Shown here piece after piece: positions 35,870 to 62,873 of a DNA stretch of 64,000 nt (positions are counted from its first letter, which is position 1; each line of letters begins with the position of its first letter). The notes under the pieces are model-generated. The model saw only the letters and a program-made list of their open reading frames with translations. It was not told the origin of the DNA and made no database searches. The translations under genes were made by a program, and so were the position numbers. Origin of the DNA: Urbifossiella limnaea (GTDB lineage: Bacteria > Planctomycetota > Planctomycetia > Gemmatales > Gemmataceae); contig NZ_CP036273.1 of the NCBI RefSeq assembly GCF_007747215.1, positions 1,224,322 through 1,288,321 on the forward strand, in the 5' to 3' direction.

Positions 35870-35958
35870 AATGGCCAAGGACCAATGACCCACCAATGAC
35901 CAAGGACAGAACCCAGTGTCTTCTATGGTCATTGGTGGGTCATTGGTCCTTGGCCATT
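35870..35958. repeat. Perfect 33-bp fold-back, AATGGCCAAGGACCAATGAC family
   Basis: Arms 35870-35902 and 35926-35958 are exact reverse complements with a 23-base loop. It lies between divergent genes (ceramidase-like and Gfo/Idh), so it is not a shared terminator there. Confidence 0.9.
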
Positions 35959-41783: not shown

Positions 41784-41800
41784 GTTGGAAATCCAGGAAT

Positions 41801-41925
41801 AACCACAGAGTCACAGAGGGCACAGAGAGAAGAGAGAAGGCAGGGGCCGAACCGTGTTGAAACCAGATTCCTCCTCTTCCCTCGGTGTTCGGTTTCCTCT
41901 CTGTGCCCTCTGTGACTCTGTGGTT
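41801..41925. repeat. Perfect 29-bp fold-back, AACCACAGAGTCACAGAGGG family
   Basis: Arms 41801-41829 and 41897-41925 are exact reverse complements with a 67-base loop containing GA-rich and CCTC-rich segments that may pair further. It lies between the hydrolase gene and the WD40 gene. Confidence 0.9.
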
Positions 41926-41941
41926 AACTGTGTTTGACCTC

Positions 41942-43045: not shown

Positions 43046-43068
43046 GAGGGAAATCCCGGCAGAGAATA

Positions 43069-43170
43069 GCCGCAAAAAGGCACAAAAAGCACGAAAAGGA
43101 AGACAAATCAAACTCTGAATAGCGTCTTGGTTCTGTCTTCCTTTTCGTGCTTTTTGTGCCTTTTTGCGGC
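43069..43170. repeat. Perfect 36-bp fold-back, GCAAAAAGGCACAAAAAGCA family
   Basis: Arms 43069-43104 and 43135-43170 are exact reverse complements around a 30-base loop. The arms are A-rich on one side, so one strand ends in a T-rich segment that may aid termination. Related arms occur at 44460-44568 and 62769-62873. Confidence 0.92.
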
Positions 43171-43186
43171 CAATCTGTCTTTGGTT

Positions 43187-44437: not shown

Positions 44438-44459
44438 CACGCGCCTCGGAATCGGAACG

Positions 44460-44568
44460 TTGGCCACAAAAAGGCACGAAAAGACACAAAAAGTAAGACC
44501 GAGCCAAGATTGAAAGCGGTCGTTGTCTTCGTTCCTTTTTGTGTCTTTTCGTGCCTTTTTGTGGCCAA
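44460..44568. repeat. Perfect 34-bp fold-back, TTGGCCACAAAAAGGCACGA family
   Basis: Arms 44460-44493 and 44535-44568 are exact reverse complements with a 41-base loop. Same family as 43069-43170 and 62769-62873. It lies between the DUF1501 gene and the DUF1549 gene. Confidence 0.92.
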
Positions 44569-44575
44569 CCTGTCT

Positions 44576-52952: not shown

Positions 52953-53726
52953 ATCCCACCGTTCGACCGCAACGCACCCCCCCGGGGCCCGGCCGGCCCT
53001 CGGATGAACGACCAGATCCGCATCAGCCCCATCCGCCTCATCGGCGCCGAAGGCGAGCAGCACGGCATCGTCCCGACCCAGCAGGCCCAGGAGATGGCCC
53101 GCGAGCTCGGCATGGACCTCGTCGAGGTGGCGGACAAGGAACGCCCGCCGGTCTGCAAGATCATGGACTACGGGAAGTTCAAGTACGACCAGTCCAAGAA
53201 GAGCCACCAGAAGACGCACCAGCAGAAGCTGAAGGAGATCCGCGTCCGCCCGAAGACCGGCGAGCACGACATCCACACCAAGGTGGTCCAGGCCCGGCAG
53301 TTCCTGGAGGAGAACGACAAGGTGCAGGTGAACGTGCTGTTCCGCGGCCGCGAGATGCAGCACATCGAGGAGGGGCAGCGGGTGATGAACGAGGTGCTCA
53401 CCGCCCTCGTGGACATCTGCAAGGTCGAGTCCCCGGCCCGGATGGAGGGGAAGCGGATGGTGGCCCTGCTGGCGCCGAAGCCGATCCTGAGCAAGTCCGG
53501 CAAGCCGAAGCCCCCGGGGTCCACCCCGGCGAAGCCCAAGCCCGTGGTGCCCAAGGTCGTCGTGCCCAAGCCCGCCGCCGCCCCGGCAACGGGTGCGGAC
53601 GGTGCGCCGCTCCCCGCGCCAGCCCCACCCGCAGACGGTGCACCGGCAGCGCCCGCCGTGGCCGCCGCTCCTGCGAAGCCGGCCGCGACCCCCACGGCGG
53701 CAGTCGCCGAGAAGCCGAAGGCGTAG
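52953..53726 (+). CDS. infC: Translation initiation factor IF-3 with ATC start and long Pro/Ala tail
   Basis: 257 residues if translation starts at ATC 52953. 'RMNDQIRISPIRLIGAEGEQ' and 'GIVPTQQAQEMARELGMDLV' form the N-domain; 'PPVCKIMDYGKFKYDQSKKS' (family signature) is the linker. 'LKEIRVRPKTGEHDIHTKVV' and 'VQVNVLFRGREMQHIEEGQR' form the C-domain. The first in-frame ATG (53004) lacks a nearby ribosome-binding site, whereas AAGGAG (52939-52944) sits eight bases before ATC 52953. ATT/ATC/ATA starts in infC are the known basis of IF-3 autoregulation in other bacteria. The C-terminal 60 residues are a Lys/Pro/Ala-rich extension ('PKPPGSTPAKPKPVVPKVVV') absent from the classical protein. It is first of infC-rpmI-rplT. 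Confidence 0.85.
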   Translation: MPPFDRNAPPRGPAGPRMNDQIRISPIRLIGAEGEQHGIVPTQQAQEMARELGMDLVEVADKERPPVCKIMDYGKFKYDQSKKSHQKTHQQKLKEIRVRPKTGEHDIHTKVVQARQFLEENDKVQVNVLFRGREMQHIEEGQRVMNEVLTALVDICKVESPARMEGKRMVALLAPKPILSKSGKPKPPGSTPAKPKPVVPKVVVPKPAAAPATGADGAPLPAPAPPADGAPAAPAVAAAPAKPAATPTAAVAEKPKA

Positions 53727-53776
53727 CCGCCCGCGGGCCGGCGCCCTAGAACTGCCTTCACGACCGAACGCCGCTC

Positions 53777-53803
53777 GGAACCCGGGCCACCCGCCCGGGT
53801 TCC
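53777..53803 (+). terminator. Hairpin after infC
   Basis: GGAACCCGGG (53777-53786) pairs perfectly with CCCGGGTTCC (53794-53803) over a 7-base loop. No real T-run follows (GGGCGTTTCGCG). It may be a weak or partial terminator lowering rpmI expression, or an RNA processing site. Confidence 0.5.
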
Positions 53804-53866
53804 GGGCGTTTCGCGTTCCACCCCCGGCGACGGGGGACACACAAGGTGACGGGGCGGCCCATAAGT

Positions 53867-53979
53867 CGGGGCCGGAGTCGGTGGGAGTCTTCGGGAGTCG
53901 ATGGGAGTATGGAGTAGAACCGGGTTCTAACTCCTCCACTCCCATCGACTCCCGAAGACTCCCACCGACTCCGGCCCCG
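53867..53979. repeat. 113-bp near-perfect fold-back, GGGAGTCGGTGGGAG family, copy B, between infC and rpmI
   Basis: Arms 53867-53908 and 53938-53979 are 42-bp exact reverse complements, and the 29-base loop pairs internally (GGAGTAGAAC / GTTCTAACTCC with small offsets). The left arm is a tandem of related units (AGTCGGTGGGAGTCTTCGGG then AGTCGATGGGAG), the same unit as in the element at 2843-2921. It lies inside what is otherwise a conserved ribosomal operon. Confidence 0.93.
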
Positions 53980-54006
53980 CCCCCCCGCACGGACCGGAGC
54001 GCCACA

Positions 54007-54213
54007 ATGGCCACGAAGAACAAGACGAACCGTAGCGTCAAGAAACGGATCAAGGTGACGGGTGGCGGGAAGCTGAAGTACGCCAAGGTCGGCCGGCGGC
54101 ACTTGAACGCCCACATGACGACCAAGCGGAAGCGCGGGCTCCGCAAGGCCGGGATCATCCAGGGCCGCCCGAGCGTGCTGAAGAAGTACAAGCTGGCCCT
54201 CGGGATCAGCTAA
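54007..54213 (+). CDS. rpmI: 50S ribosomal protein bL35
   Basis: 68 residues. 'KTNRSVKKRIKVTGGGKLKY' and 'RHLNAHMTTKRKRGLRKAGI' are standard bL35 sequence, very rich in Lys/Arg. ATG 54007 is the only start giving the normal length. It sits between infC and rplT as in most bacteria, but 280 bp downstream of infC because of the hairpin and fold-back there. Confidence 0.97.
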   Translation: MATKNKTNRSVKKRIKVTGGGKLKYAKVGRRHLNAHMTTKRKRGLRKAGIIQGRPSVLKKYKLALGIS

Positions 54214-54271
54214 CCCCCACACCCCACACACCACCGGGGGATAACCAGGCCCCCCGTTTCGAGGAGACGCC

Positions 54272-54655
54272 ATGGTCCGCGCCCGCAGTAAAGCCCCCAC
54301 CGCGCGCCGCAAGAAGCGCACCCGGAAACTCACGAAGGGCTTCCGCCTCGCCCGCCACAACCTGTACCGGCAGGCGATCGTCACCCTGATCCGCGCCCGC
54401 GCGTTCTCGTACCGCGACCGCAAGGTCAAGAAGCGCGACTTCCGCCGGCTGTGGATCATCCGCATCAACGCCGCCTGCCGGATGCGCGGGCTCCGCTACA
54501 GCGAGTTCATCCACGGCCTGCAGCTGGCGATGGTGGCGCTCGACCGCAAGTCGCTGTCCGAGATCGCCATCCACGACCCGGCCACGTTCGACCAGCTGGT
54601 GAACATCGCCCGCGAGAAGCTGCCGAAGCCGCAGGCTGCCGCCGCGAAGGCGTAA
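54272..54655 (+). CDS. rplT: 50S ribosomal protein bL20
   Basis: 127 residues. 'RRKKRTRKLTKGFRLARHNL', 'RQAIVTLIRARAFSYRDRKV', 'KKRDFRRLWIIRINAACRMR' and 'LRYSEFIHGLQLAMVALDRK' are the canonical bL20 blocks. The length is slightly above the usual 118 because of an Ala-rich tail ('PKPQAAAAKA'). GAGGAG precedes ATG 54272. In many bacteria bL20 represses its own operon by binding leader RNA; I do not see a clear leader copy here. Confidence 0.97.
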   Translation: MVRARSKAPTARRKKRTRKLTKGFRLARHNLYRQAIVTLIRARAFSYRDRKVKKRDFRRLWIIRINAACRMRGLRYSEFIHGLQLAMVALDRKSLSEIAIHDPATFDQLVNIAREKLPKPQAAAAKA

Positions 54656-54671
54656 GAAATGTCGCTCCGAA

Positions 54672-54691
54672 CTCCGGGGACGACCCCGGAG
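54672..54691 (+). terminator. Hairpin downstream of rplT (first of two)
   Basis: CTCCGGGG (54672-54679) and CCCCGGAG (54684-54691) with loop ACGA. It is followed within 12 bases by a second, longer hairpin, a double-stem ending for the ribosomal operon. Confidence 0.6.
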
Positions 54692-54703
54692 CGTCGCACC
54701 TCC

Positions 54704-54733
54704 GAAGCCCACCCGGCGCGCCGGGTGGGCTTC
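54704..54733. terminator. Perfect 30-bp palindrome downstream of rplT
   Basis: GAAGCCCACCCGGCG directly joined to its reverse complement. The loop must use the centre. On the plus strand CCGGCGTTTACC follows, so there is only a short T-run. It probably terminates rplT and the opposing small gene. Confidence 0.65.
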
Positions 54734-54739
54734 CGGCGT

Positions 54740-54829
54740 TTACCCCGGCCGCCGCAGCAGCATCCCGCCGAGCAGGTACACCACCGCGCCCATCACCAGC
54801 GCGAACCCCACCGCCGTAACCGCTTCCAT
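54740..54829 (-). CDS. Tiny membrane protein, 29 aa
   Basis: Starts ATG 54829 after a GGAGGG ribosome-binding site and ends TAA at 54740. Product: 'MEAVTAVGFALVMGAVVYLL' then 'GGMLLRRPG', a single membrane helix with a positive C-terminal end. It is short, so a coding role is not certain, but the ribosome-binding site and clean helix favour it. It converges with rplT at the 54704 palindrome. Confidence 0.5.
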   Translation of the reverse strand: MEAVTAVGFALVMGAVVYLLGGMLLRRPG

Positions 54830-59003: not shown

Positions 59004-59112
59004 CCCGGCGAGCCGAGGGCCGTCAGGCCCCGGGTGGTACGCACGTCGAATCACGTCGGATGTGACCTGATGTGCGTACCACCCGGGGCCTGACGGCCCT
59101 CGGCTCGCCGGG
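59004..59112. repeat. Perfect 41-bp fold-back between secA and glyQS
   Basis: Arms 59004-59044 and 59072-59112 are exact reverse complements around a 27-base loop. It starts eleven bases after the secA stop. No related copy is seen elsewhere in the window. Confidence 0.93.
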
Positions 59113-62768: not shown

Positions 62769-62873
62769 GGCCACAAAAAGGCGCGAAAGGACACAAAAAG
62801 AAAGCAAGACAGAGAACGGATCGAAGCTTGGCTCGGTCTTACTTTTTGTGTCTTTTCGTGCCTTTTTGTGGCC
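62769..62873. repeat. 32-bp fold-back, GGCCACAAAAAGGCACGAAA family, between hslV and hslU
   Basis: Arms 62769-62800 and 62842-62873 match at 30 of 32 positions; both differences leave G-U pairs in the plus-strand RNA. Same family as 43069 and 44460. The element separates two genes that are normally adjacent and coupled. Confidence 0.88.

Follow-up and report, generated by a model that had tools for sequence, protein, structure and literature searches.

A palindrome in the rpmI leader of Urbifossiella limnaea probably belongs to a dispersed class of hairpins resembling 23S rRNA intervening sequences

We found that a palindrome between infC and rpmI of Urbifossiella limnaea, in a 64,000-nucleotide stretch of its genome (hereafter the window), is probably (we put the chance at about two in three) a short, gene-less member of a dispersed class of hairpins that resemble the intervening sequences (IVSs) of 23S rRNA. 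Full-length members of this class would carry a gene for the 23S rRNA intervening-sequence protein (IVP) between their arms, and the copy studied here would sit at the tip of the rpmI–rplT leader hairpin. The palindrome belongs to a family of repeats that is specific to this species, and an IVP gene is carried by one locus that shares its arm word. IVP genes of several phyla are associated with inverted arms, arm sequence tracks IVP sequence, and the palindromes turn over at orthologous sites. The features of the infC–rpmI region are the following.

53004–53726, plus strand: infC (NCBIfam)
53772–53808, plus strand: terminator-like hairpin after infC, with a weak T-rich tail and not called by the terminator scan
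53846–53854, plus strand: 5′ strand of the conserved leader stem, GTGACGGGG (six genomes)
53867–53979, no strand assigned: focal palindrome, 113 bp (inverted-repeat scan and RNA fold)
53867–53908, plus strand: left arm, 42 nt, reading from about 53875 GGAGTCGGT-GGGAGTCTTC-GGGAGTCGAT-GGGAGT in 10-nt units
53909–53937, plus strand: loop, 29 nt, with an inner hairpin, similar to the inner parts of L003 and L016
53938–53979, plus strand: right arm, 42 nt, the perfect reverse complement of the left arm
53982–53990, plus strand: 3′ strand of the conserved leader stem, CCCCCGCAC, adjoining the ribosome-binding site (six genomes)
54007–54213, plus strand: rpmI (L35; NCBIfam)
54272–54655, plus strand: rplT (L20; NCBIfam)

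The original prediction described a 113-bp palindrome with exact 42-nt arms and a self-pairing loop, lying between infC and rpmI after a separate hairpin, and our analysis bore this out. The arm scan gave 100% complementarity over 42 nt at a spacing of 29 nt, the RNA fold prediction has the loop self-paired, and the NCBIfam genes and the hairpin at 53772–53808 agree with the described position. The stable RNA fold-back that had also been proposed is supported, provided that the element is transcribed: the predicted fold has an energy of −127.8 kcal/mol, compared with a shuffle mean of −67.6 (s.d. 4.6, z = −13.15), and none of 200 shuffles equalled it. As for the claim that this is the strongest structure in the window, the palindrome does have the longest perfect arms, but longer imperfect arms occur at 59004–59112 and 43063–43176. 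The inverted repeat at 59004–59112 (54 nt, 91% complementary) lies directly after secA, resembles the REP-like palindromes of the genome and is absent after secA in the nearest relative, G001. Promoter and terminator scans returned nothing at the focal site, where the stem is followed by a run of C and a scan of 53600–54800 found no intrinsic terminator. No Rfam ribosomal-protein leader reached the gathering score in the window; the sole match at that score was an Acido-Lenti-1 RNA (RF01687; 522–567, minus strand).

The palindrome is framed by a short stem that is shared with relatives. Sequences identical or close to GTGACGGGG and CCCCCGCAC occur in six genomes, where they are able to pair directly upstream of the ribosome-binding site, and an alignment of the joined flanks yielded a consensus stem in the leader, albeit from only six sequences. 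Because the flanks pair and the alignment gives this stem, we place the focal element at the tip of a conserved leader hairpin. The sequence between the aligned flanks varies from 11 nt (G021) up to 81–99 nt where a palindrome is present. The original prediction looked to close relatives for the same element, taking its absence there as evidence against a role at this site, and such absence was found in part: the infC–rpmI gap that holds a GGGAGTC palindrome in U. limnaea lacks any palindrome in G003 and G021; G002 has a short GC stem there, and the palindromes of G004 and G005 use another word and are unrelated in sequence. Since congeners have unrelated palindromes or none at that tip, the focal palindrome is not a conserved attenuator. 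The G001 contig (L055, G001:C166) stops 13 nt short of rpmI, and a palindrome there may have interrupted the assembly.

The focal palindrome has many counterparts in its own genome. BLAST of the genome (7.80 Mb, one contig) returned 27 matches, counting both strands, which fall at the focal place and at 13 others. The copies all combine a loop with an inner GGGAGTGGAGGAGT (or a close form of it) and with arms in which GGGAGTC is followed by three variable bases; 13 of the 15 copies scanned contain an ungapped palindrome, with arms that are 92–100% identical within a copy. The pattern GGGAGTCNNNGGGAGT occurs 22 + 22 times in this genome and 0–2 times in each of 94 other genomes of the family (it is present at all in 15 of the 95 searched), and the GGGAGTC palindrome family is species-specific. 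The GGGAGTC word was found in 49 stretches of the collection scan, many from unrelated phyla.

The genome also has many further palindrome families of this build that use other short words. A 464-kb sample, consisting of the window and 20 further stretches, five of which were picked around genes or repeats of interest, contained 49 inverted repeats at threshold, whereas order-5 Markov sequence of equal size contained none. In some of these the arms consist of repeated short words (AATGACC, CACAGAG, ACAAAAAGGC, GAATGAC, ACAGGAT, TTTCGAG and GGGGTGA), and others look REP-like. The window holds the following besides the focal copy.

2037–2128, no strand assigned: GGGGTGA-unit palindrome; the word also flanks an IVP gene (L208)
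2839–2925, no strand assigned: second GGGAGTC-family copy, L014 (BLAST and inverted-repeat scan)
35870–35958, no strand assigned: AATGACC-unit palindrome (inverted-repeat scan)
41800–41926, no strand assigned: CACAGAG-unit palindrome (inverted-repeat scan)
43069–43170, no strand assigned: ACAAAAAGGC-unit palindrome (inverted repeat 43063–43176, arms of 50 nt, 90%)
44459–44569, no strand assigned: ACAAAAAGGC-unit palindrome (inverted-repeat scan)
62769–62873, no strand assigned: ACAAAAAGGC-unit palindrome (inverted-repeat scan)

When genes were called with a coding model of our own and REP-like palindromes were counted in, the distance from palindrome to stop codon was at most 30 nt in 45 of 54 cases (median 6), and that to the start codon in 17 of 40 (median 43).

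A locus elsewhere on the contig links the GGGAGTC word to a protein. At C1:663454-663984, two oppositely oriented GGGAGTC arrays 0.5 kb apart enclose an open reading frame (C1:663535-663928, 130 aa) that matches PF05635, the 23S rRNA IVP (4e-26), and TIGR02436, a four helix bundle protein, and is related to XCC0516 (PDB 2gsc; 3e-6). The right side has a single array, and the left array sits within a small palindrome that is complete on its own; the locus may therefore be an IVP gene beside repeats and not one clean element. The genome has seven PF05635 genes. Six of them have spanning-arm scores of 26–33, and the seventh (L210) scores 10. Their arm words mostly differ, with those of L212 and L214 alike, and three of the seven words recur in small palindromes within the sampled 6% of the genome. 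For several words of small palindromes (CACAGAG, ACAAAAAGGC and AATGACC) we found no IVP partner. In L084:8454-8985, a complete small GGGAGTC palindrome fills the gap between the stops of two convergent genes, one of which is the IVP gene.

The association of IVP genes with inverted arms extends well beyond this species. Of 59 genomes comprising U. limnaea and relatives, 33 had IVP genes; so did 14 of 25 genomes that were selected by way of loci from other groups. The arm test covered 66 IVP loci, of which ten were dropped for too little flank; among the remaining 56, spanning-arm scores of at least 15 were obtained for 35, from several phyla, and the median of all 56 was 19. By comparison, 1.3% of 3,080 mismatched left–right flank pairs reached the threshold (median 9), as did 8 of 305 genes sampled from U. 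limnaea, one of them the IVP gene, and 1 of 24 rplT loci. Judged by genome title, the arm-positive loci include Microcoleus, Flavobacteriales, Lewinellaceae, Prevotellaceae, Verrucomicrobia and Phycisphaerae genomes. The best internal lag of the arms was 7 nt in 24 of the 35 arm-positive loci; the GGGAGTC family, unlike these, has a period of 10 nt. The 21 loci below the threshold include some at 13–14 with recognisable words and five with no visible arms (L224, L237, L238, L256 and L262), so the gene and the arms need not go together. An Rfam scan of 20 IVP loci gave no match in any, which places those 20 outside 23S rRNA. In a Microcoleus genome, two IVP genes (L251 and L261) lie between GTTGACT and GGGGCAT arrays, which resemble the short tandem repeats of cyanobacteria. 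One further IVP locus (L218) has a far longer inverted repeat (score 83) that extends past the word array into non-repetitive sequence.

Among the 35 loci with arms, IVP protein identity was correlated with arm similarity (Mantel r = 0.43, with none of 5,000 permutations as high), and a control that compared each arm with the reverse complement of the other arm, thereby keeping GC content, gave −0.05. More than one-fifth of 7-mers were common to both loci in 6 of 55 pairs with at least 45% IVP identity, compared with 1 of 540 other pairs. This tracking would be explained by shared descent of the whole element as well as by recognition of the arms by the protein.

Orthologous sites differ in which palindrome they hold. 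The site at C1:110873 has an AATGACC palindrome in U. limnaea, a related one in G001, GGTGAGG in G002, GCGGATGACGCAGAT in G005, other sequence in G004 and none in G003. Between U. limnaea and G001, the 37-nt arms at this site differ at seven positions; as the arms remain perfectly complementary within each genome, all seven changes are mirrored in the opposite arm. At position 35870 of the window, the AATGACC palindrome is replaced by ACAGGAT in G004, another word in G005 and another hairpin in G002; in G003 there is no palindrome and the far neighbour gene differs from that of U. limnaea. At C1:663449, the IVP locus of U. limnaea corresponds to an IVP-less GGGCAGT palindrome in G004.

We weighed three other explanations. 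One possibility is that no element is involved: palindromes would grow in place from chance repeats through hairpin-primed or template-switch replication and be favoured by selection behind stop codons, where they would stabilise RNA or act as terminators for both sides, with IVP as a passenger. The mirroring of all seven arm changes at C1:110873, the unrelated words in the same gaps across species and the 45 of 54 stop-codon distances of at most 30 nt would fit this idea, but the association of IVP genes with arms and the correlation between the two argue against it. In addition, because words are common to many distant copies and absent in congeners, copying appears to be needed, and we consider growth in place unlikely. 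A second reading takes the palindrome as the functional core of a conserved regulatory RNA in the rpmI–rplT leader, that is, an attenuator or an L20/L35 feedback site. Although the palindrome lies 27 nt upstream of the rpmI start, the short leader stem is conserved across six genomes and four of six gaps scanned have a terminator-like hairpin upstream, the palindrome itself is absent from G003 and G021, reduced to a short GC stem in G002 and different in sequence in G004 and G005, the same family occurs elsewhere in the genome, and an Rfam ribosomal-leader match is lacking; this reading seems to us quite improbable. The original prediction of an attenuator dedicated to ribosomal-protein levels is likewise unsupported, with the family at 13 other places in the genome and the site variable in relatives. 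The short stem before the ribosome-binding site and the upstream terminator-like hairpin are better candidates for regulation than the palindrome. In several Gemmataceae gaps (L056, L057, L058, L063 and L068), a TACAAT-like box followed by a terminator-like hairpin is found upstream of rpmI; in U. limnaea the box reads TAGAAC (window 53740–53808). This combination looks like a leader attenuator.

The remaining explanation is that these are REP/REPIN-type palindromes mobilised by a RAYT (Y1) transposase. Short, scattered intergenic palindromes are what such a system would leave, other palindromes in the genome look REP-like, and the genome has three PF01797 matches, one of them 3.3 kb from a GGGAGTC family copy. 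However, the RAYT gene at C1:118405-118831 lies amid GGCTGAAGGCCTG-type hairpins and not GGGAGTC arrays, the arms are arrays of a word and not one REP of 20–40 bp, and the gene between GGGAGTC arrays encodes IVP and not RAYT. We therefore regard this origin as very unlikely, and RAYT was rejected as the source of the GGGAGTC palindromes because different repeats surround the best RAYT gene.

We thus favour membership of the IVS-like hairpin class. In such a class, the arms would be inverted arrays of a short word, often of 7 nt; in this family the unit is GGGAGTC with 3 nt added. Members of full length would have a gene for the four-helix-bundle IVP between the arrays. Copies may spread by means of IVP, which would act in trans on its cognate arms. 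The focal copy would occupy the tip of the conserved rpmI–rplT leader hairpin much as small 23S IVSs occupy rRNA helices, and its hairpin most likely forms in the transcript and is then tolerated in the leader or cut by RNase III, as in IVS-bearing rRNA. The arms could stay identical because repair uses the hairpin as its template or because the fold is under selection. Several results weigh against this view: 21 of the 56 IVP loci fell below the arm threshold, only three of the seven IVP words of U. limnaea had small-palindrome matches in the sample, several small-palindrome words lacked an IVP partner, the period of the GGGAGTC family is 10 nt and not the usual 7, and C1:663454-663984 may not be a single element.

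Hairpin elements of short words whose larger members carry IVP, a small protein familiar chiefly from rRNA insertions, point to an overlooked kind of genome parasite. A broader proposal, which we hold tentatively and at somewhat less than even odds, is that IVP is the dedicated partner of short-word palindromes across bacteria: each IVP would recognise its own word and both spread and maintain gene-less hairpins, which would lie immediately behind stop codons and at RNA hairpin tips, the heptamer repeats of cyanobacteria, Xanthomonas and others would be its footprints, and 23S IVSs would be merely the best-known landing site. If true, this would give a widespread, functionless-looking protein family a home outside rRNA, provide an origin for the heptameric intergenic repeats of several phyla and offer a testable system that ties a non-transposase protein to a self-complementary repeat. 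We recognised no literature linking dispersed short-word palindromes to IVP in a search that left subscription journals mostly outside, so an earlier report is possible.

Several known systems invite comparison. REP/REPIN–RAYT systems consist of one gene bracketed by repeats and many dispersed gene-less palindromes. The IVP system likewise has a bracketed gene and scattered gene-less palindromes, but the gene is PF05635 and not PF01797, and the arms are arrays of words; at the best of the three Y1_Tnp genes, the flanks held other hairpins and no GGGAGTC repeats. The elements are like MITEs in being short and gene-less with inverted-repeat ends, but an unsystematic search found no transposase with such ends and noticed no target duplication. 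They also share G-rich, intergenic 7-nt words with the heptameric repeats of Xanthomonas and Nostoc, GGGAATC and GGGGATT, which form 70–75 close inverted pairs per Xanthomonas genome (PMC4692102). That paper gives the repeats no general link to mobile elements and nowhere uses the terms IVP, S23 or helix bundle (PMC4692102). Avd of diversity-generating retroelements is described as homologous to IVP (PMC10053308), but an RVT_1 match at threshold was lacking in 10 of the 33 genomes with IVP (drafts may miss one), and an obligatory reverse transcriptase for IVP is unlikely.

The closest known elements are the 23S rRNA IVSs. That of Coxiella burnetii is described as having a 28-bp terminal repeat and GACAGAT heptamers in its 5′ region, with RNase III cuts in the stem (PMC4990558), and small IVSs reported to lack an open reading frame include those of 83 and 99 nt in Salmonella 23S rRNA (PMC2672173). 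The likeness comprises a long terminal inverted repeat, heptamer arrays in the arm, a seat in a helix of a structured RNA, and a large form with a four-helix-bundle open reading frame in the loop next to a small form without one (PMC4990558, PMC2672173). In contrast to 23S IVSs, the elements here lie in intergenic DNA and an mRNA leader, and a single genome has many of them, built from many words. The focal palindrome has the stable stem from a long terminal inverted repeat; it lies between infC and rpmI in a window without an LSU rRNA match, and its 29-nt loop holds no IVP reading frame, although C1:663454-663984, which shares its arm word, does carry one. Since stems of this kind are where 23S rRNA IVSs are cut, as reported for Coxiella (PMC4990558), RNase III is a reasonable guess, and by this analogy cutting of the focal stem is plausible.
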